This document shows positions 20,073 through 27,325 of a DNA stretch of 64,000 nucleotides, one piece after another; position 1 is the stretch's first letter, and every line of letters begins with the position of its first letter. The position numbers were made by a program, and so were the translations under genes. The notes under the pieces were generated by a model. It was not told the DNA's origin and did no database searches. It was given only the letters and a program-made list of their open reading frames with translations. Location: NCBI GenBank assembly GCA_002840055.1, contig PGZJ01000002.1:310001-374000 (forward strand), read 5' to 3'. This DNA comes from Gammaproteobacteria bacterium HGW-Gammaproteobacteria-11 (GTDB lineage: Bacteria; Pseudomonadota; Gammaproteobacteria; Pseudomonadales; Pseudomonadaceae).

Positions 20073-20522
20073 ATGATCAATGCCAAATTACTTCAGCTGG
20101 TCGTCAACGCCTCCAACGACGGTATTGTTGTCGCCGAACAGGAAGGTGACGACAACATCCTGATTTATGTCAACAAGGCCTTTGAGCAATTGACCGGCTA
20201 CAGCAGCGACGAGATCCTCTATCAGGACTGCCGTTTTCTGCAGAAAGACGACCGCGATCAGCCAGGCTTGCAGGCTATTCGTCAGGCGGTGCTGGATGGC
20301 AAACCCTGTCGACAAATCCTACGCAACTACCGCAAGGACGGGAGTTTGTTCTGGAATGAACTGTCGATCACGCCGGTCTTCAACGAAGCCGATCAACTGA
20401 CCTACTTTATCGGCATTCAAAAGGATGTGACCGAGCAGGTTGAAGCGCAGCACAAGGTCGAGGACCTGCAAAAGGAAATTCTCGAGCTACGCAGCCAACT
20501 GGCACAGCTCAAGACCCCCTGA
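20073..20522 (+). CDS. Short LOV blue-light photoreceptor (PpSB1-LOV type)
   Basis: A 149-aa protein made of one LOV domain with short N- and C-terminal helices and no effector domain. The flavin-adduct cysteine is Cys53 in QDCRFLQ, the same number as in P. putida PpSB1-LOV, and the FMN contacts RNYRKDGSLFWNELSI and YFIGIQKDVTEQ follow. The C-terminal helix (residues 130-149) would form the coiled dimer. Such proteins act on class II LitR regulators in P. putida, and a matching litR lies 2 kb downstream here. ATG 20073 is chosen; an upstream GTG at 20043 is less likely. Confidence 0.95.
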   Translation: MINAKLLQLVVNASNDGIVVAEQEGDDNILIYVNKAFEQLTGYSSDEILYQDCRFLQKDDRDQPGLQAIRQAVLDGKPCRQILRNYRKDGSLFWNELSITPVFNEADQLTYFIGIQKDVTEQVEAQHKVEDLQKEILELRSQLAQLKTP

Positions 20523-20535
20523 CCCATGGGAGTTA

Positions 20536-20675
20536 GGAAACCTCTGAAAACGTAGGCGAGGCAGGCGCAGCAAGGCAAAAACAGCCGATAAAGCGCAGTT
20601 TACGTGTTGTAAATGAGCATTTTGAGGATGTTTTTAACGCGGATGCGCCAACGCAGGTAGTTTTCAGAGATTTCC
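20536..20675. mobile_element. MITE-like non-autonomous element (140 bp)
   Basis: Terminal inverted repeats begin GGAAACCTCTGAAAAC (20536-20551) and end GTTTTCAGAGATTTCC (about 20660-20675), differing at one base over 16. TA dinucleotides flank both ends (20534-20535 and 20676-20677), as in a TA target duplication. The interior has no ORF of note. Similar elements with these ends are, from memory, common in pseudomonads. The transposase that would move it is not in the window. It sits between the LOV and HD-GYP genes. Confidence 0.7.
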
Positions 20676-21913
20676 TATCGGCCGAGCCGAATATTCTCCC
20701 TGGTAAAGACCTCAAGATCGACCCCGTAGGCACCATCAACCAGTACCCTGGCAATTTTCATGGCGCTGCCTGGATGAGCTGACTTCTCCGCGCGCAAATC
20801 GATGACACGCTGCTGCATCGATTGCTTGTGTGCATCCAGAATCAGCGCAACGCGAGGCTGCAGACGATAGGCTTGATCAACTGACAGAACAATGCCCACC
20901 TCGCCCGAGTTCATCTCCACCAGGGTGCCTGGCGGATACACCCCAATACATTCGATAAAGCGGAGTACCAACGCCTCATCAAACTGCGTATTGCGGTGCT
21001 GATAAAGAATCTTCAAAGCGGTCTCGGAACTGTTGCTGTCACTGTAACAGCGACGGCTGGTAATGGCGTCATAGGCGTCAACCACGGTAATCAATCGTGT
21101 CAGTTGATCAATCTCCTGCGCCGGTAACCCGAGCGGGTAACCCTGTCCATCAATACGCTCGTGGTGGCTGTAAGCAACCGTCACCACCTGCTTCGGCAGA
21201 TGCGGGTCCTGCAACAGCGCATCCCGACCAAAAACCGAATGCAGCTTGATGTGCTCAAACTCATCAAAGGTCAATTGCCCCGGTTTATTGAGTACGGTCT
21301 GATCGACCGACATCTTGCCTACATCGTGCAACATGCCACACACGCCCAGTAATTCGATCTGATCTACAGGCAAACCGAGAAAACGGGCAAATACCATCGC
21401 CTGAATTCCCACATTCAGACAATGTTCCGCCGTGTATTGATCTACATGCTTGATCCGCGTAAGCCACATTAGCGCAGAAGGGTTACGCATCACCGACTCC
21501 AGGCAGCCCTTGACTGTAGCCATCACAGCTGTAGCGGACAGTGCATCACCCCCGGCAACAGTAGCCAAGGCCTGATGAATATCCTCCAGAGCACTGCTAT
21601 AGAGCACAGTGGCTTTGGCAATTTCTTCCTCTATTTCAACCTCAACCGGATAGTGAATCTTGTCTGACGAGTCGGACTGAGCCAGACGTTCTGCTGTGAT
21701 CTGCAATTGGGGAGAGCGTTCCGGATCAATCAGCACAAAATCGCATAGCTCATGCAAGGTCTGCAGCTCCTGCTCGGTGCTCAGAATAAAACCCTGAAAC
21801 AGGAACGGACTATCAAGCCAGGGTCTATCGAGCGCACAGACATACATGCCCAATCGCAGATCCCGGGGATGCAGTTTGATGGCTTTATGACCGACAGGCG
21901 GGGACGTGGACAT
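20675..21913 (-). CDS. HD-GYP cyclic-di-GMP phosphodiesterase with DUF3391 domain
   Basis: A 412-aa protein that should hydrolyse cyclic-di-GMP. An N-terminal DUF3391-like domain (IKLHPRDLRLGMYVC, about residues 12-80) precedes the HD-GYP domain (about 140-320) with LHDVGKMSVD (His196-Asp197), HHERIDGQGYPLGL (250-263) and the GYP triad at 258-260. All metal ligands appear present. I chose ATG 21913 (MSTSPPVGHKAIKL). The TAG stop is formed by the last base of the neighbouring MITE plus its TA flank, so the original C-terminus may have been changed. Confidence 0.93.
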   Translation of the reverse strand: MSTSPPVGHKAIKLHPRDLRLGMYVCALDRPWLDSPFLFQGFILSTEQELQTLHELCDFVLIDPERSPQLQITAERLAQSDSSDKIHYPVEVEIEEEIAKATVLYSSALEDIHQALATVAGGDALSATAVMATVKGCLESVMRNPSALMWLTRIKHVDQYTAEHCLNVGIQAMVFARFLGLPVDQIELLGVCGMLHDVGKMSVDQTVLNKPGQLTFDEFEHIKLHSVFGRDALLQDPHLPKQVVTVAYSHHERIDGQGYPLGLPAQEIDQLTRLITVVDAYDAITSRRCYSDSNSSETALKILYQHRNTQFDEALVLRFIECIGVYPPGTLVEMNSGEVGIVLSVDQAYRLQPRVALILDAHKQSMQQRVIDLRAEKSAHPGSAMKIARVLVDGAYGVDLEVFTRENIRLGR

Positions 21914-22145
21914 TAATATAGCGACTCCAGATACTGCATGTATTAGGTCATCTGGTACGCCGGGCTTCAACGGCGAGACACGAGCGTTATGCTCAGTCAT
22001 TCCCTTGACCCACATACAAGAGTATAACGCCAACGCCGGAACGGCAGTGGTCACATTTGGTCATAAGCGCGGAACAAGACATAGAAAAAAGGGATCAAGG
22101 TTGTTGAAACATTGATCAAAAGGCGGGAATAGAGATTCAGTGGCG

Positions 22146-22220
22146 TTAAAAAACCCCGGTAGCCCTAAAGGGGAAGACGGCTACCGGAGTGCGCAGCTTG
22201 GTTTTAACGGAACTCAGCAT
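22146..22220 (-). CDS. Possible 24-aa short ORF running through the terminator
   Basis: ATG at 22220 opens a frame beginning MLSSVKTKLRTPVAV and ending RATGVF, with the TAA formed at the end of the terminator T-run. The ribosome binding site is weak (GGTGA about 9 bases upstream). Because most of the frame is terminator stem, it may be accidental. It would be expressed from the same TATAAT promoter as the candidate small RNA. Confidence 0.25.
   Translation of the reverse strand: MLSSVKTKLRTPVAVFPFRATGVF
22147..22187 (-). terminator. Strong intrinsic terminator, leftward
   Basis: On the minus strand CCGGTAGCC (22187-22179) pairs with GGCTACCGG (22164-22156) and is followed by GG then GTTTTTTAA, a proper U-tract (22153-22147). 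It would end transcripts from litR and from the TATAAT promoter at 22250. Confidence 0.85.
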
Positions 22221-22243
22221 GGCGAGGTCACCAGCAAAGTTAT
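22147..22243 (-). ncRNA. Candidate small RNA (about 97 nt) downstream of litR
   Basis: A minus-strand promoter with a perfect TATAAT (22255-22250) would start transcription near 22243, and the strong terminator at 22147-22187 would end it, giving an RNA of about 97 nt in a stretch without a normal gene. A TTGTACA box overlaps the -35 position. The RNA is inferred from promoter, terminator and spacing only. Confidence 0.4.
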
Positions 22244-22249
22244 ACAAAC

Positions 22250-22277
22250 ATTATAACCAATCTATGCACTTGTACAG
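22250..22277 (-). promoter_or_regulatory. TATAAT promoter overlapped by a TTGTACA box
   Basis: The -10 element is TATAAT (22255-22250 on the minus strand). The -35 position, 16 bases upstream, reads CTGTAC and lies within the plus-strand box TTGTACAG (22270-22277). A LitR-type repressor bound there would block RNA polymerase in the dark. Confidence 0.5.
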
Positions 22278-22304
22278 ATATAAGCGCTTCAATAGCCCTG
22301 GCAG

Positions 22305-22320
22305 TTGTAAATTTGTACAA
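22305..22320. promoter_or_regulatory. Inverted-repeat box TTGTAAATTTGTACAA
   Basis: The 16 bases form arms TTGTA and TACAA around AATTTG and include one exact TTGTACA. It lies 50 bases upstream of the TATAAT promoter just described (minus-strand sense) and 20 bases past the litR stop. It is likely a second LitR half-site cluster. Confidence 0.4.
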
Positions 22321-22338
22321 CAAGCCGCACCGCATGCA

Positions 22339-23301
22339 TCAACTATCCAAATGCCCCGCCAACAGACTTCGGATTGACAGGGTCAAGCCGTCATCCGCCA
22401 GACCGACAAGATGCAATCCGGCTTTTGTCAGGGCCTCAGGCTGAACTTCGCAAAGCGGACCGACAACGGCCACCGGACAGTCGAGCTGCTGCTCCAGTCG
22501 CGGCAGATGCTTGAGCAGTAGATCGTTGCCAAGGGCAACGGCCCCATACAACACCAGTACTGCACACTCACTCCGCTCAGCCACGACAGACAGCTCTGAA
22601 ATGCTGGCAAGGGCAGGAACAAGAGTGACATCCGCACCGGCAGCATTAATGAACAAGGCCGCCAGCAACAGCTCGATCTCTGCAACCCCCTCATGCAAAC
22701 CGACCAGCACAACGTTGGGCTGCCCGGTCTTGAGAAAGCCCGTACGCTGAAACAGTCGGCCACGTAGAAAGGCATCAAGGAACCGCCACTGACCTGACCG
22801 GGCTTTAGGCTCAGTGGCATTATGGAATTCGTTCCAGACCGGCAGAATGATGTCCTGAAAGACAACGGACAATGGAAAGCTGGCGTGCAGCTGACCATAG
22901 AGCCGGTCCAGTTCATGGGTATCGAAGTTGTTGACCGCTTCGATCAGCTTTGACTGCCACAGTGCAAAGGTATTCCCAGCAGGCCCCTCAACCGAGTTTG
23001 TACTGACCTGCTGAACGGGCGGCAATACCTGCCGGTCAATAATCGAAGCAACCTTGCTGACGGCAACACCACGTTCGATCCACGACATCACCGCTTTGAC
23101 TCGATTGATGTCATGCATTGAATAAAGGCGATGTCCACTGGGCGTTCTGTGCGGCACCAGCAAACCGTAGCGACGCTCCCAGGCCCGCAGCGTGACGGGA
23201 TTGACCCCCGTCAGGCGAGAAACCTCACGAATAGGGAAAAGGTCCTCGCGGTTGAGGTCCTGTGCTGTAACAACCGCTGTGCTTTCGATATTTTCGGTCA
23301 T
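22339..23301 (-). CDS. MerR-family regulator, class II LitR/PplR type (no B12 ligands)
   Basis: A 320-aa regulator. Residues 22-90 are a MerR winged helix (FPIREVSRLTGVNPVTLRAW, ERRYGLLVPHRTPSGHRLYS). Residues 110-320 have the helical plus Rossmann layout of the CarH/LitR cobalamin-binding region. The residue that should be the lower-ligand histidine (in EGxxHE) is Glu208 in EGVAEIE, and the Glu-His pair of the helix bundle reads WR (172-173), so it should not bind adenosyl-B12. In P. putida such class II proteins (PplR1-3) need short LOV proteins for light control; one is encoded 2 kb away. Its own promoter region carries TGTACA boxes. Confidence 0.88.
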   Translation of the reverse strand: MTENIESTAVVTAQDLNREDLFPIREVSRLTGVNPVTLRAWERRYGLLVPHRTPSGHRLYSMHDINRVKAVMSWIERGVAVSKVASIIDRQVLPPVQQVSTNSVEGPAGNTFALWQSKLIEAVNNFDTHELDRLYGQLHASFPLSVVFQDIILPVWNEFHNATEPKARSGQWRFLDAFLRGRLFQRTGFLKTGQPNVVLVGLHEGVAEIELLLAALFINAAGADVTLVPALASISELSVVAERSECAVLVLYGAVALGNDLLLKHLPRLEQQLDCPVAVVGPLCEVQPEALTKAGLHLVGLADDGLTLSIRSLLAGHLDS

Positions 23302-23377
23302 ATCCGCTTACAGTGAGGGAGCCGGTGAAGAGCCATATGCATTGCAGTGCGGCGTCATCGCTCGTTTAATGTGCCTA

Positions 23378-23413
23378 TTGTACAGAAGTTAGGCAATAGC
23401 TGAACCCTGTACA
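23378..23413. promoter_or_regulatory. Two TGTACA boxes between litR and the DCC gene
   Basis: TTGTACA (23378-23384) and CTGTACA (23407-23413) lie in the 142-bp divergent region. On the minus strand the first box includes TACAAT, a good -10 for litR, so binding would give autoregulation. The 23-base spacing between them is not the 12-base spacing reported for P. putida PplR1 sites. Confidence 0.5.
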
Positions 23414-23443
23414 TTCCTTTTCAAGACTCAGAGATCCGAAGCT

Positions 23444-23902
23444 ATGCCTATCCCTGATCCTGCCTGGCCATTAACGTTGTTCTATGATGGTGACTGCCCT
23501 TTGTGCCTGCGTGAAATTCACATGTTTGAGAACCGCAATCACCAGCAGAACCTGTTACTGGAGGATATTGCTGCAAAAGACACCACGCCCCTGCCTGGCC
23601 TGAGCCGAGAGCAGATGCTTGACTGCCTGCATGCCCGCTTTGCTGATGGGCGCGTAGTCACAGGTATCGATGCAACCTACTGGAGCTACCATGCCGTTGG
23701 GCTCGGCTGGGTGATCAAACCCCTTGGCTGGCGCTGGGCCAGACCCTTCTGGCAGATGGCCTATCGCCTTTTCTGCCGACTTCGCCCGGGAATTGCTAGG
23801 CTGGTCCCGATGCCTGGAGCACGTTGCCGGGACGGACAATGTGATATCGCTGCGACCAACAAAAAAGTCATTGCCACCGAGCAGCAGACCAAGGTTGACT
23901 GA
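23444..23902 (+). CDS. DCC-family (DUF393) thiol-disulfide oxidoreductase-like protein
   Basis: A 152-aa DUF393 protein with the N-terminal thioredoxin-like motif FYDGDCPLCLREI (DxxCxxC, residues 13-25). The middle WSYHAVGLGWVIKPLGW and the C-terminal CRDGQC are also visible. The reaction is not known; a redox or radical-quenching role has been guessed for the family. It is divergent from litR and shares the TGTACA boxes, so it is probably light-inducible. Confidence 0.88.
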   Translation: MPIPDPAWPLTLFYDGDCPLCLREIHMFENRNHQQNLLLEDIAAKDTTPLPGLSREQMLDCLHARFADGRVVTGIDATYWSYHAVGLGWVIKPLGWRWARPFWQMAYRLFCRLRPGIARLVPMPGARCRDGQCDIAATNKKVIATEQQTKVD

Positions 23903-23925
23903 GCCAAACCAACGACTACAGCGGG

Positions 23926-24183
23926 CTAACGTCCAATCACCTCATCCTGCGGCACCCTGACCTGCAAGGCTATGCCGGTGTAGCCGATCTTGCACAGCCG
24001 CGCACGCACATCGCCCAAGCTGCGCCAGAACAAGGGTCGACCCTGCGCATCGGTAATGGGTTGCGCGGCCTGACCCGGAGGAATTACCTGTACGCTGTAC
24101 CGCCCCAGACAACTATGCGTGATAATATCGAGCTGCTGAATGCAACCGAGCCGCCTGGCGCGCTTCAGATCGACTAGCGTCAT
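23926..24183 (-). CDS. Small DUF6482-like protein
   Basis: An 85-aa protein, MTLVDLKRARRLGCIQQL at the start and QVRVPQDEVIG at the end. The pattern (a short N-terminal helix, two beta hairpins, ending near EVIG or EMIG) resembles the small pseudomonad proteins grouped as DUF6482, but this is from memory and not checked. ATG 24183 has GAGGA 8-9 bases upstream. No signal peptide or membrane helix. It is divergent from the folM operon and has an inverted TTGTAT repeat in its promoter region. Confidence 0.7.
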   Translation of the reverse strand: MTLVDLKRARRLGCIQQLDIITHSCLGRYSVQVIPPGQAAQPITDAQGRPLFWRSLGDVRARLCKIGYTGIALQVRVPQDEVIGR

Positions 24184-24210
24184 GACAACGTCCTCATGAA
24201 CAAGGCTATT

Positions 24211-24232
24211 TTGTATAAGTTTTATGATACAA
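24211..24232. promoter_or_regulatory. Inverted TTGTAT/ATACAA repeat upstream of the DUF6482-like gene
   Basis: TTGTAT (24211-24216) and ATACAA (24227-24232) face each other over 10 bases, 28 bases upstream of the gene start. Each arm is one base from the TTGTACA box seen elsewhere in this region, so a LitR-type site is plausible. Confidence 0.4.
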
Positions 24233-24334
24233 GCCTGTAGCCCCAAGACACAGTCATACGCCAGAAAAATCGCCATTCAGACATGCATTCTTACGAATGA
24301 CATCAAGGATTGATCATTTCAATGCGGCAAATAG

Positions 24335-24361
24335 TTGTACAAATAATCGCATTGGTATAAG
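24335..24361 (+). promoter_or_regulatory. folM operon promoter with a PplR-type direct repeat
   Basis: TGTACA (24336-24341), then exactly 12 bases, then GGTATA (24354-24359). This matches the direct repeat T(G/A)TACA-N12-TGTA(C/T)A that I recall being reported for P. putida PplR1, with one mismatch. TATAAG (24356-24361) could be the -10, so the second half-site would cover it. Transcription would start near 24368. Confidence 0.55.
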
Positions 24362-24380
24362 TTTAGCCAAGGAGTTGGTA

Positions 24381-24428
24381 ATGCATGACCTTGCCGCTGT
24401 ACCCCGGTTATGGATTACCCGCTCCTGA
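24381..24428 (+). CDS. Possible leader peptide of the folM operon (15 aa)
   Basis: ATG 24381 is preceded by AAGGAG at ideal distance (6 bases) and encodes MHDLAAVPRLWITRS before a TGA. It ends 23 bases before the folM start, whose own ribosome binding site is weak. This is the layout of a translated leader. It has no runs of one amino acid, so classical attenuation is not evident. Confidence 0.4.
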   Translation: MHDLAAVPRLWITRS

Positions 24429-24451
24429 CCCAGCCACCGCCTGAGAACGCC

Positions 24452-25153
24452 ATGGACACACGACAGACCATACTGATTACTGGCGGCGCGCAGCGCGTTG
24501 GTCTTCACTGTGCCCGTCGCCTGCTGCAGGATGGATTCCGGGTAATCATTACCGCCAGGCAGTTTGACGCAGAGCGACAGCAACTTGCGGACGAAGGGCT
24601 GGAGCTGTTGAAGGCAGACTTTTCCAGACTGGAAGGCATACATACCTTCATTACCGAGCTCAAGGCTCTGCAGCCCCGCTTGCGCGCCCTGATTCACAAT
24701 GCCTCCCTGTGGCTGACGGATGATCAGAACCCGGATGCGCTGCATCAGATGTTCATGGTGCACATGCAGGCTCCGATGCTGATCAATCTGGCCTGCGCCG
24801 ACCTGTTCGAGCCTGCGCCCTGTGCCGACATCATCCATATCACCGACTATGCAGCTCAACGCGGCAGCCACAAACATACCGGTTATTGCGCCAGTAAAGC
24901 CGGACTGGAAAACCTCACTCTATCCTTCGCCAAACGCCTGGCCCCGGACGTCAAGGTCAATGCGATTGCCCCGGCACTGATCATGTTCAATGAACAGGAC
25001 AGCCCGGAATACCGCCAGAAAACCCTGGCCAAATCAGCCCTGGGCATTGAGCCGGGACCTGAAGTGGTATACCAGTCCATCCGCTATCTGATGGACAATC
25101 CCTATGTAACAGGAACCAGTCTGACCCTGAACGGCGGCAGACATTTGCTATGA
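24452..25153 (+). CDS. folM: Dihydromonapterin reductase FolM (SDR family)
   Basis: A 233-aa short-chain dehydrogenase that reduces dihydromonapterin (and dihydrofolate weakly) with NADPH. Cofactor motif ITGGAQRVG (residues 8-16) and catalytic GYCASKAG are present; ITDYAAQRG supplies the upstream active-site region. Together with FolX it makes tetrahydromonapterin, the cofactor of phenylalanine hydroxylase in pseudomonads. ATG 24452 ([12 protein letters not shown]) is preferred to ATG 24410. Its stop overlaps the first possible folE start (ATGA). Probably light-controlled through the upstream TGTACA repeat. Confidence 0.9.
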
Positions 25154-25173
25154 CAGCCAAAGAGACCCCTGCG

Positions 25174-25737
25174 ATGAGCCTAGAAAACCTCACACAGAAC
25201 TACCACGACATCCTCACCAACCTGGGTGAGGATACTGCGCGGGATGGGCTCAAGGGCACGCCATTGCGTGCCGCCAAAGCCATGCAGTTCCTGTGCAGGG
25301 GCTATGACCAGTCGCTGGAGGAAATCGTCAATGGCGCGCTGTTCGCCTCCGACAACGACGAAATGGTCATCGTCAAGGACATTGAGCTCTACTCCCTGTG
25401 CGAACACCACATGCTGCCCTTTATCGGCAAGGCCCATGTCGCCTACATCCCTACCGGGCAAGTGATTGGCCTGTCTAAGGTCGCGCGCATCGTTGACATG
25501 TTTGCCCGCCGCCTGCAGATTCAGGAAAACCTCACCCGGCAGATCGCTGAAGCCCTGCAATCGGTAACCAATGCCAAAGGCGTGGCCGTAGTCATCGAAG
25601 CCAAGCACATGTGCATGATGATGCGTGGCGTCGAGAAGCAGAACTCCTCCATGCACAGTTCCGTCATGCTGGGCGCTTTTCGCGATTCAGTGAACACCCG
25701 CCAGGAATTCCTGCAACTGATCGGCCGGAGTCGCTGA
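25174..25737 (+). CDS. folE: GTP cyclohydrolase I FolE
   Basis: Zinc-dependent GTP cyclohydrolase I, 187 aa, which turns GTP into dihydroneopterin triphosphate, the entry to folate and pterin synthesis. [22 protein letters not shown] carries one zinc cysteine and the histidine (shown here in adjoining parts), and MCMMMRGV the second cysteine. The start [10 protein letters not shown] matches other pseudomonads; an in-frame ATG at 25150 overlapping the folM stop would add 8 residues and couple translation. In P. putida one folE copy is light-induced, in line with the context here. Confidence 0.95.
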
Positions 25738-25738
25738 G

Positions 25739-26116
25739 ATGCCCAAGCTGACCCCCGGCATGGCCCGTATCCGGGTCAAGGACCTGCGCCTGCGCACCTT
25801 TATTGGCATCAATGACGATGAAATCCGCAACAAGCAGGATGTCCTGATCAATCTGACCATTCTTTACCCGGCTGACGATGCTGTGGCGGTCAATCAGATA
25901 GACAAGGCGCTGAACTACCGCACCATCACCAAATCCATCATTCGCCATGTCGAAGAAAATCGCTTTGCCTTGCTGGAGCGCCTGACCAAGGAAGTACTCG
26001 ATCTGGTCATGGCCTATCCGCAGGTGCATTACGCCGAGGTGGAAGTCGACAAGCCCCATGCGTTGCGCTTTGCCGAGTCGGTGTCCATCACCCTGTCCGA
26101 CAGCCGCGAACTCTGA
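25739..26116 (+). CDS. folX: Dihydroneopterin triphosphate 2'-epimerase FolX
   Basis: A 125-aa FolB/FolX-fold enzyme that turns dihydroneopterin triphosphate into the monapterin form. The active-site regions are [12 protein letters not shown] and [15 protein letters not shown]. The FolB-type glutamate/tyrosine set differs in a way usual for FolX, and the folM neighbour supports this choice. ATG begins one base after the folE stop. folM, folE and folX thus make one unit for tetrahydromonapterin. Confidence 0.92.
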
Positions 26117-26196
26117 CCGCGCTGGCAAAGATTGCCGCTGTCGCAGCAGGTCAGTATTATCCGAGCGAGCAAGCCCTGACCCCTGCGGAGTTGATC

Positions 26197-26493
26197 ATGA
26201 CCAAACAAGAGCGCATCGAGCTTGAAGCCGCCGCCTTTCGTAACCTGCTGGTGCACCTCAGCAGTCGCAAGGATGTCCAGAATATCGATCTCATGACCCT
26301 GGCCGGTTTCTGTCGCAACTGCCTGGCGAAATGGTACAAGAGCGCGGCCGACGACATGGAGATCGAGCTGAGCCTGGAGCAGGCTCGCGAAGCCATTTAC
26401 GGCATGCCCTACAGCGAATGGAAAAGCAAATACCAGAAGGAAGCCACACCGGCACAACAGGCCGCCTTCGACAAATCCCAGAAACAGGACTGA
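26197..26493 (+). CDS. DUF1244 family protein
   Basis: A 98-aa protein with the family's hallmark GFCRNCLAKWY (residues 36-46; paired cysteines may bind metal) and IYGMPYSEWKSKYQ. ATG 26197 has CGGAG 8 bases upstream. No function is proven. It follows folX by 80 bases and stands 2 bases before the HopJ-family gene, so it belongs to the tail of the pterin operon. Confidence 0.88.
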   Translation: MTKQERIELEAAAFRNLLVHLSSRKDVQNIDLMTLAGFCRNCLAKWYKSAADDMEIELSLEQAREAIYGMPYSEWKSKYQKEATPAQQAAFDKSQKQD

Positions 26494-26495
26494 CC

Positions 26496-26831
26496 ATGCC
26501 CATGCCCGCCTTTCTTGCCGCCCTTGAGCGCGGAGAGATTCGCTTTGCCGACACCCTGAGCCTGATAGATGACCTTTACCATTATCAGCCCAGCGCCTTT
26601 GACAATGGTCAGGTGCACAACAGTGCAGAACAGAATCAGGGCTCGTGCAAGGTACTGGCCATGGCCATCGACCAGGGCTTGAGCGACCAACAGGCACTGC
26701 AATGCTTTGCCGAGCATTATCAATCCGTACTGGACAACCCGGATGGTAGCGACCACGCCAATATTCGCGCACTGATGATCACCGGCCTGGCCGGCGTGCG
26801 CTTTGCTTCAACACCACTGGTACGTCGCTGA
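26496..26831 (+). CDS. HopJ-family small protein
   Basis: A 111-aa protein of the family named after the P. syringae HopJ effector. DTLSLIDDLYHYQPSAFDNG and HNSAEQNQGSCKVLAMA are the conserved parts. The family is widespread in non-pathogens, and there is no type III secretion locus here, so a housekeeping role is more likely than an effector role. It overlaps the RDD gene by 1 base and sits 2 bases after DUF1244, which marks a tight three-gene unit. Confidence 0.85.
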   Translation: MPMPAFLAALERGEIRFADTLSLIDDLYHYQPSAFDNGQVHNSAEQNQGSCKVLAMAIDQGLSDQQALQCFAEHYQSVLDNPDGSDHANIRALMITGLAGVRFASTPLVRR

Positions 26832-27325
26832 TGGCCGTGAGCATGCTGGAACCTGCCGGCAGTTTCCCGGCCGCTGGTCTGGGTCGACGACTGGCCAGCG
26901 CCTTTTATGATATGTGGCTGTGCCTGGCACTGATGATGACCCTGACGCTGATCTACCAACAGGGCATCCTGCGCCTGATATACGGCAGTGAGGCGCTGAA
27001 AACGCTGTCGGACGCCGGCGCCCTGGACCGCGACCCGATTCTCAGTCTGATCCTGCTGGCCGGCCTGCTTGGCTTCTTCGGTTTGTTCTGGAGCAAAAAG
27101 GGTCAAACCCTGGGCATGCAGGTCTGGCGCGTCAGACTGCAGCAACCCGACGGGCGCTCAATCAGCTTGCGTCAGGCGCTGATTCGTTTTGTCGTGGCTG
27201 TTCCAGCCTGGCTATGTGGTGGGCTGGGCATTATCTGGATTTTCTTCGATGCGAAGTCACGCAGCTGGCAGGACATTGCCAGCGGTACGCAACTGGTAAC
27301 GCTGCCCAAGGGTACGTTCAAGTAG
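26831..27325 (+). CDS. RDD family membrane protein
   Basis: A 164-aa inner-membrane protein with three predicted helices (about residues 28-50, 68-86, 120-142). The name-giving region GLGRRLASAFYDMWLC stands at the start, with the Arg-Asp pattern, and SKKGQTLGMQVWRVRL follows the second helix. RDD proteins have been linked to ion exchange or membrane-protein insertion, but not reliably. It ends 20 bases from convergent lptG. It overlaps the HopJ gene by 1 base. Confidence 0.87.
   Translation: MAVSMLEPAGSFPAAGLGRRLASAFYDMWLCLALMMTLTLIYQQGILRLIYGSEALKTLSDAGALDRDPILSLILLAGLLGFFGLFWSKKGQTLGMQVWRVRLQQPDGRSISLRQALIRFVVAVPAWLCGGLGIIWIFFDAKSRSWQDIASGTQLVTLPKGTFK

Follow-up and report, generated by a model that had tools for sequence, protein, structure and literature searches.

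The closest described relative of the locus studied here is the PmlR2/PmSB-LOV system of P. mendocina NBRC 14162. According to the main text of its report (PMC9758184), the short LOV photoreceptor, the LitR repressor and the folM operon are encoded together, a TGTACA-N12-GGTATA box lies 95 bp ahead of folM and, as worked out in vitro, the LOV protein binds to LitR once illuminated and releases it from DNA. The LOV-LitR pair is thus already known, and it recurs in the stretch of DNA analyzed in this work, a 64-kb window (G000:C77:310001-374000) of an incomplete assembly (3.24 Mb, 82 contigs, 75.9% complete), where it is accompanied, directly 3' of litR, by a unit made of an operator and a terminator hairpin with no gene between them. 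Taken as a whole, the region is probably a blue-light switch of the PmlR2/PmSB-LOV type, to which a gene-less small-RNA (sRNA) unit derived from a light-controlled operon has been added. An earlier reading of the same sequence (the original prediction) had listed an sRNA candidate, which is real as a conserved element, and had overlooked the unit as what it is, the most unusual part of the region. We describe here the anatomy of this unit, its conservation and covariation, and the linkage of its element to the operator.

Light control in non-phototrophic Pseudomonas has so far concerned protein-coding genes (photolyase, pterin and fatty-acid genes). In P. putida KT2440, folE, phrB and cryB are reportedly light-induced, and the consensus T(G/A)TACA-N12-TGTA(C/T)A is said to come from the 2020 work of Sumi. 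If our reading holds, an operator whose sole product is a short structured RNA, conserved across several genera and exchangeable for a form with a gene, would provide the LOV-LitR system with an RNA output; the unit would be a clear case of an sRNA left behind by an operon minus its gene, as well as a precise and easily tested target. No description of the unit (22148-22276) was found in the literature: no such RNA figures among the papers listed on light and small RNA in Pseudomonas or on light-regulated sRNAs, although a mention in a P. putida study is possible, and a term search of the main text of PMC9758184 returned neither sRNA or small RNA nor HD-GYP.

Anatomy of the unit 3' of litR

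The unit, on the minus strand, is composed of a LitR-type operator with an embedded -10, about 45 nt, the motif CUGCGCA and a terminator hairpin; the predicted RNA is about 96 nt long, from about 22243 to 22148. Boxes, CTGCGCA, hairpin and U run are found directly 3' of litR in 11 loci, the window and 10 relatives. The hairpin fold is stable (z -3.3) and its stem covaries: 99.3% of the alignment cells are paired, the covariation score is 0.395 against 0.206 after shuffling, and 7 of the 11 stem pairs feature double changes against 4.5 after shuffling, figures to be read knowing that the alignment was fitted to the model and that related rows inflate such scores. Just outside the stem, CTGCGC is invariant in all 60 aligned sequences, while the 9 preceding bases are 30-58% conserved; the count is not independent of the covariance model, which favours the motif, and the 14 loci found via LitR, described below, are therefore a fairer support. 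No Rfam family matches the unit at its gathering threshold. As to the promoter and terminator expected of a trans-acting sRNA, the -10 within the operator and the terminator are both conserved, no consensus sigma-70 promoter was found, and the reading frame was judged by eye.

Two functions were considered for the unit and set aside. A leader peptide is disfavoured because the relatives, as judged by eye, share no start for the frame that is open in the window. An anti-Shine-Dalgarno role of the loop was rejected as a general function, since the C-rich, UCUUCCCC-like loop is constant only within the genus of the window and differs in other genera. What the RNA may do instead is act on other RNAs through CUGCGCA and the pyrimidine-rich loop. 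In its full form our proposal is tentative, and somewhat short of an even chance: a light-induced sRNA gene within the LOV-LitR locus, formed from the operator and the 3' end of a light-controlled acyl-CoA dehydrogenase operon, which would carry the light signal to the post-transcriptional level through these two features, as an independent RNA in the genus of the window and otherwise as the 3' end of a messenger.

Linkage of the element to the operator

A covariance model of the element was run on 37 genomes of the genus and on 398 sampled genomes of the family (E 0.01), with matches in 12 and 59 of them, respectively. Most of the 61 matches read in context, 57, are accompanied by a LitR-type operator. 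The other four (L191, L192, L193 and L210; E 0.005 to 0.0096) have neither operator nor CTGCGC and are judged false, though they remain in the count of 61. The element directly follows LitR in 20 matches, all with an operator within 250 bp, as is also the case in L220, a short contig with no LitR; by comparison, 118 of 3524 background windows (3.3%), each of 262 bp, hold such an operator.

In 29 further matches the element follows an acyl-CoA dehydrogenase gene, and in all of them the operator precedes that gene, with three exact boxes in register in 27 and two in L123 and L206; 99 of 783 windows of 600 bp from these loci hold a pair, the operators themselves included. In the four dehydrogenase starts checked, the operator ends 16-37 bp ahead of the start codon. 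The dehydrogenase thus separates operator and element in 29 of 57 cases, while in the genus of the window nothing lies between them. Since this operator and this terminator flank the dehydrogenase gene in other lineages of Pseudomonas, the form found in the window can be described as that light operon without its gene. Operator and terminator would act as one transcription unit, whose middle holds either a gene or nothing. In the short units of L124 and L100 (G299, the same place as L208) the last codons of the dehydrogenase remain, as seen by eye, so that the gene can go while both ends stay. Which of the two forms is the older, and in which order the events took place, we infer rather than observe. 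Seven matches consist of operator and element with no LitR, LOV or dehydrogenase within the stretch read (L124, L199, L202, L205, L208, L209 and L214); their regulator presumably lies elsewhere.

The linkage was also approached from the regulator. A single-sequence LitR query of the genome contigs gave no match, whereas an alignment query gave 588 profile matches, of which the best 80 were kept; the profile includes element-bearing loci, and the choice of loci therefore leans to LitRs of this type. Among these best 80, an operator is found within 450 bp after LitR in 15, and the element is present in 14 of these 15 (in L234 only weakly, E 0.1; in the fifteenth the contig ends inside the dehydrogenase) and in none of the 65 others. 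Several of these loci belong to genomes of the model set (L225/G337, L256/G248, L230/G212, L249/G399, L235/G141): the two counts differ in how the loci were found, and do not represent independent genomes.

These figures bear on a simpler explanation, by which the element is just a strong terminator for litR, and for the convergent LOV gene, the upstream boxes acting on read-through or looping, with no functional sRNA. About 150 bp past the litR stop and on the same strand, the hairpin does have the look of a terminator, in 29 loci the element just ends the dehydrogenase gene, and the scan found no consensus sigma-70 promoter. A litR terminator, however, would need no triple operator between stop codon and hairpin, the element is confined to loci where an operator precedes it (the 14 of 15 against 0 of 65 among the best 80 of 588), and the constancy of CTGCGC next to far less conserved bases, albeit in an alignment whose model favours the motif, speaks against it as well. 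We regard this explanation as rather unlikely.

Operator and hairpin might also be transcribed yet functionless, as the decaying relic of a lost light-controlled dehydrogenase operon, an unlikely case in our judgement. The gene-bearing loci, where the same operator and element flank the dehydrogenase, and the codon remnants in L124 and L100 would fit such a relic. Neutral relics should decay, however, and the short form is kept in four genera, with a covarying stem and a constant CTGCGC; within the genus it is found in the window and in 10 loci whose LitRs are 47-59% identical to that of the window. In a LitR tree the gene-less form is scattered, with 9 changes, at least 4 of them forced by the starred branches; the tree is a quick one with long branches, used solely for this scatter.

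Besides the fitting of the alignment mentioned above, several points weigh against an added sRNA gene under light control. At the sRNA, the minus strand yielded no consensus promoter in the sigma-70 scan, and the terminator scan, limited to loops of 3-8, did not list this hairpin. The terminator loop varies between genera, which disfavours a trans-acting role. Operator and element are missing in 65 of the best 80 LitR loci, P. mendocina FFL34 included, and 18 of the 30 LitR-bearing genomes of the genus have no element match, so that the core switch does not need the sRNA unit. Finally, light induction in P. mendocina, as given in the main text of PMC9758184, is only about 2.5-fold for folM and 1.5-fold for pmlR2.

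The probable light switch, its operators and the neighbouring genes

The features of the region are collected in Table 1. From left to right, the genes are those of the short LOV (+), an HD-GYP protein (-), LitR (-), a DCC protein (+), a DUF6482-like protein (-) and folM-folE-folX (+).

Table 1. Features of the LOV-litR-folM region, in window coordinates
Feature	Position	Strand	Basis or remark
Short LOV photoreceptor, PpSB1/PmSB-LOV type, Cys53	20073..20522	+	Pfam PAS_9 6.2e-23; 7r5n 1.4e-70; 3sw1 9.1e-61
DUF3391 + HD-GYP gene, c-di-GMP phosphodiesterase type	20675..21913	-	Longest open reading frame extends to 22054
Predicted sRNA, ~96 nt	22148..22243	-	5' end placed from the -10, 3' end from the U run
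Conserved core of the sRNA: CTGCGCA, terminator hairpin, U6	22148..22196	-	Conservation and covariation
Tripartite LitR-type operator of the sRNA, TGTACA-N13-GTTATA-N5-TGTATA	22241..22276	-	GTTATA is part of the -10 TATAAT
Extra single TGTACA box between litR and the sRNA operator	22314..22319	.	Box count
Class II LitR, MerR repressor of PmlR2/PplR type, no cobalamin ligands	22339..23301	-	Pfam, NCBIfam, structure match, alignment
litR/DCC operator, TGTACA-N23-TGTACA	23379..23413	.	Full form in 5/9 aligned loci (window included), first box in 9/9
DCC1-like thiol-disulfide oxidoreductase family gene	23444..23902	+	Pfam
DUF6482-like gene	23926..24183	-	Pfam 23.6 bits, cut-off 23.5; scanned form is the longest open reading frame, to 24276
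folM operator, TGTACA-N12-GGTATA	24336..24359	+	P. mendocina form, at about the same distance
folM, dihydromonapterin reductase	24452..25153	+	NCBIfam PRK06483 311.8 bits, cut-off 249
folE, GTP cyclohydrolase I	25150..25737	+	Pfam 2.7e-74
folX/folB-type gene	25739..26116	+	Pfam FolB 2.3e-25

Between LOV and HD-GYP, a 151-bp stretch (20529-20679) resembles a miniature inverted-repeat transposable element, with near-perfect terminal inverted repeats AGGAAACCTCTGAAAA / TTTTCAGAGATTTCCT; one copy is found in the incomplete assembly.

The LOV protein is a PAS/LOV domain with no effector domain, has Cys53 within YQDCRFLQ and, among solved structures, is closest to short LOV chains of the Pseudomonas type (7r5n and 3sw1), in line with the PpSB1-type assignment made earlier. 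The LitR protein had been described as a LitR/CarH relative deprived of the cobalamin ligands, which is borne out. In a Pfam scan at E 0.001 MerR is the only domain found, with no B12 domain, the NCBIfam CarH model scores 71.8 bits against a cut-off of 400, and CarH structures align only to residues 15-99, the helix-turn-helix (HTH). In 17 aligned class II LitRs the sole invariant His sits within the HTH; no cobalamin-binding domain with a ligand His, at what we take to be the CarH ligand positions, is found. The two genes, predicted to lie 2 kb apart, are separated by 1.8 kb, and they belong together: among 37 genomes of the genus, both are found in 30 and neither in 7. Given this co-occurrence and the P. 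mendocina precedent, the core claim of the original prediction was right and concerned an already known system. The assembly encodes two LitRs and one LOV: the second LitR lies elsewhere, in a cluster with a photolyase and a cyclopropane-synthase-like gene, and has perfect boxes.

Exact TGTACA boxes are enriched in the whole window (16 against 6.65 expected, a number reached in none of 100 shuffles) and more so in the intergenic DNA between LOV and folM, 1010 bases in total (5 against 0.26 expected; none of 5000 shuffles). Boxes had been announced in at least four intergenic spots: they are real, but the exact ones occupy three intervals (22271 and 22314; 23379 and 23408; 24336), the fourth site, ahead of the DUF6482-like gene, being a degenerate TGTATA (24212), where the relatives L051-L053 have TTGTACAAA. 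When the published class II LitR form, T(G/A)TACA-N12-TGTA(C/T)A, was searched between LOV and folM, only the folM site matched with 1 mismatch and two others with 2. The folM box, 93 bp ahead of the gene, is similar in both form and distance to that of P. mendocina, so that agreement with the published operator holds. The litR/DCC and sRNA sites are TGTACA-N23/24-TGTAYA and fit the N12 form only with 2 mismatches, while perfect N12 sites are found at the second-LitR and cryptochrome-DASH (cry-DASH) loci; operators of the consensus type are thus present at targets.

Loose N12 sites, with 2 mismatches, are not in excess genome-wide (146 against 138 for the reversed pattern), but perfect boxes are: the 9 chosen genomes contain 28 of them and 2 sites of the reversed pattern, so that an excess is seen for exact sites only. 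The second-LitR/FAD (flavin adenine dinucleotide)-oxidoreductase pair accounts for 18 of the 28, while four boxes (G011, G023, G030, G031) have no match to seven probe genes, except for distant GGDEF proteins in G030. One perfect box, ahead of a glutamine-synthetase-like gene (C62; L050:1341-1364), was discarded: it is a perfect 9-bp palindrome, TATACATGC...GCATGTATA, found also in G011, and is probably the site of another regulator. The TGTACA-N23/24-TGTAYA form occurs in three places of the 3.24-Mb assembly, against 0 for the control: upstream of the sRNA, in the litR/DCC interval, and immediately ahead of the cry-DASH gene. In the latter the half-sites lie at 0, 18 and 29 and the central half-site can be read as a -10, an arrangement which unites the N12 and N23 forms. 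At L048:5886-8742 this triple operator is directly followed by the cry-DASH gene and then by a second cryptochrome/photolyase gene.

By analogy with P. mendocina, from which the mechanism is taken, LitR in the dark would cover the core promoter by binding to TGTACA-type half-sites in pairs or triplets, blocking transcription; under blue light, the adduct of Cys53 with flavin mononucleotide would form in the short LOV, which would then bind LitR and remove it from DNA. Local targets would be folM-folE-folX and litR and/or the DCC gene, and those outside the window the second-LitR/photolyase cluster and the cry-DASH operon. The additional target, immediately past the 3' end of litR, is an operator with only CUGCGCA and a rho-independent terminator behind it; it would yield the RNA of about 96 nt, the unit having been retained as an sRNA gene; both transcript and light induction are predictions from the sequence.

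The gene between LOV and litR had suggested that light may also steer lifestyle through cyclic di-GMP (c-di-GMP). Its adjacency and its intact HD-GYP catalytic motifs (HDVGK and HHERIDGQGYP) are in favour of this view, which we nevertheless consider very improbable and do not retain: only 9 of 30 genomes have the gene in this position (the window, G014 and 7 from a set of 29 loci), its leader (21914-22147) has no box, and the terminator lies between HD-GYP and the light operator. For a c-di-GMP link, a better lead is suggested by C60, where a LitR-type box separates a GGDEF gene from a divergent DUF6436-like one (L049:5078-5101, corresponding to G000:C60:24077-24100). Of 30 loci examined, 6 have the box at an unchanged distance (3 perfect, 3 with one mismatch), and an additional locus matches it with two mismatches; in G031, which is among the six, the stretch read contains no DUF6436 gene.

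Comparison with known systems

The predicted RNA resembles ErsA (Rfam Pseudomon-1) in being short, with a terminator hairpin at its end and a pyrimidine-rich loop; it differs from both ErsA and RybB in its control, and its covariance matches to them are below threshold (RybB 20.3 bits and ErsA 16.6 bits, with gathering thresholds of 40 and 50).

With class I CarH/LitR, the adenosylcobalamin photoreceptor (5c8d), the window's LitR shares the MerR HTH domain and tandem half-sites in steps of about 11 bp, the step length of CarH being near 11 bp; unlike class I, it lacks the ligand residues and any match to a B12 domain, the sensing of light being left to a separate LOV protein. P. putida KT2440 has three PplRs (PplR1-3) and two LOVs (PpSB1-LOV and PpSB2-LOV), compared with the two LitRs and one LOV of this incomplete assembly.

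In P. mendocina FFL34 (L247) no operator is found within 450 bp after LitR and there is no element match; an open reading frame of 210 aa (L247:9976-10608) lies between LitR and LOV, where the window has instead HD-GYP and the sRNA unit. A similar open reading frame, beside LOV in L098, matches no Pfam family; the C-terminal part of this type of protein looks PilZ-like by eye.

The likeness is closest to PmlR2/PmSB-LOV, as described in the main text of PMC9758184: it extends to the short LOV with Cys53, the class II LitR, the neighbouring genes, folM-folE-folX and the form of the folM box, as well as to a second LitR lying elsewhere in the genome within a photolyase/fatty-acid cluster.

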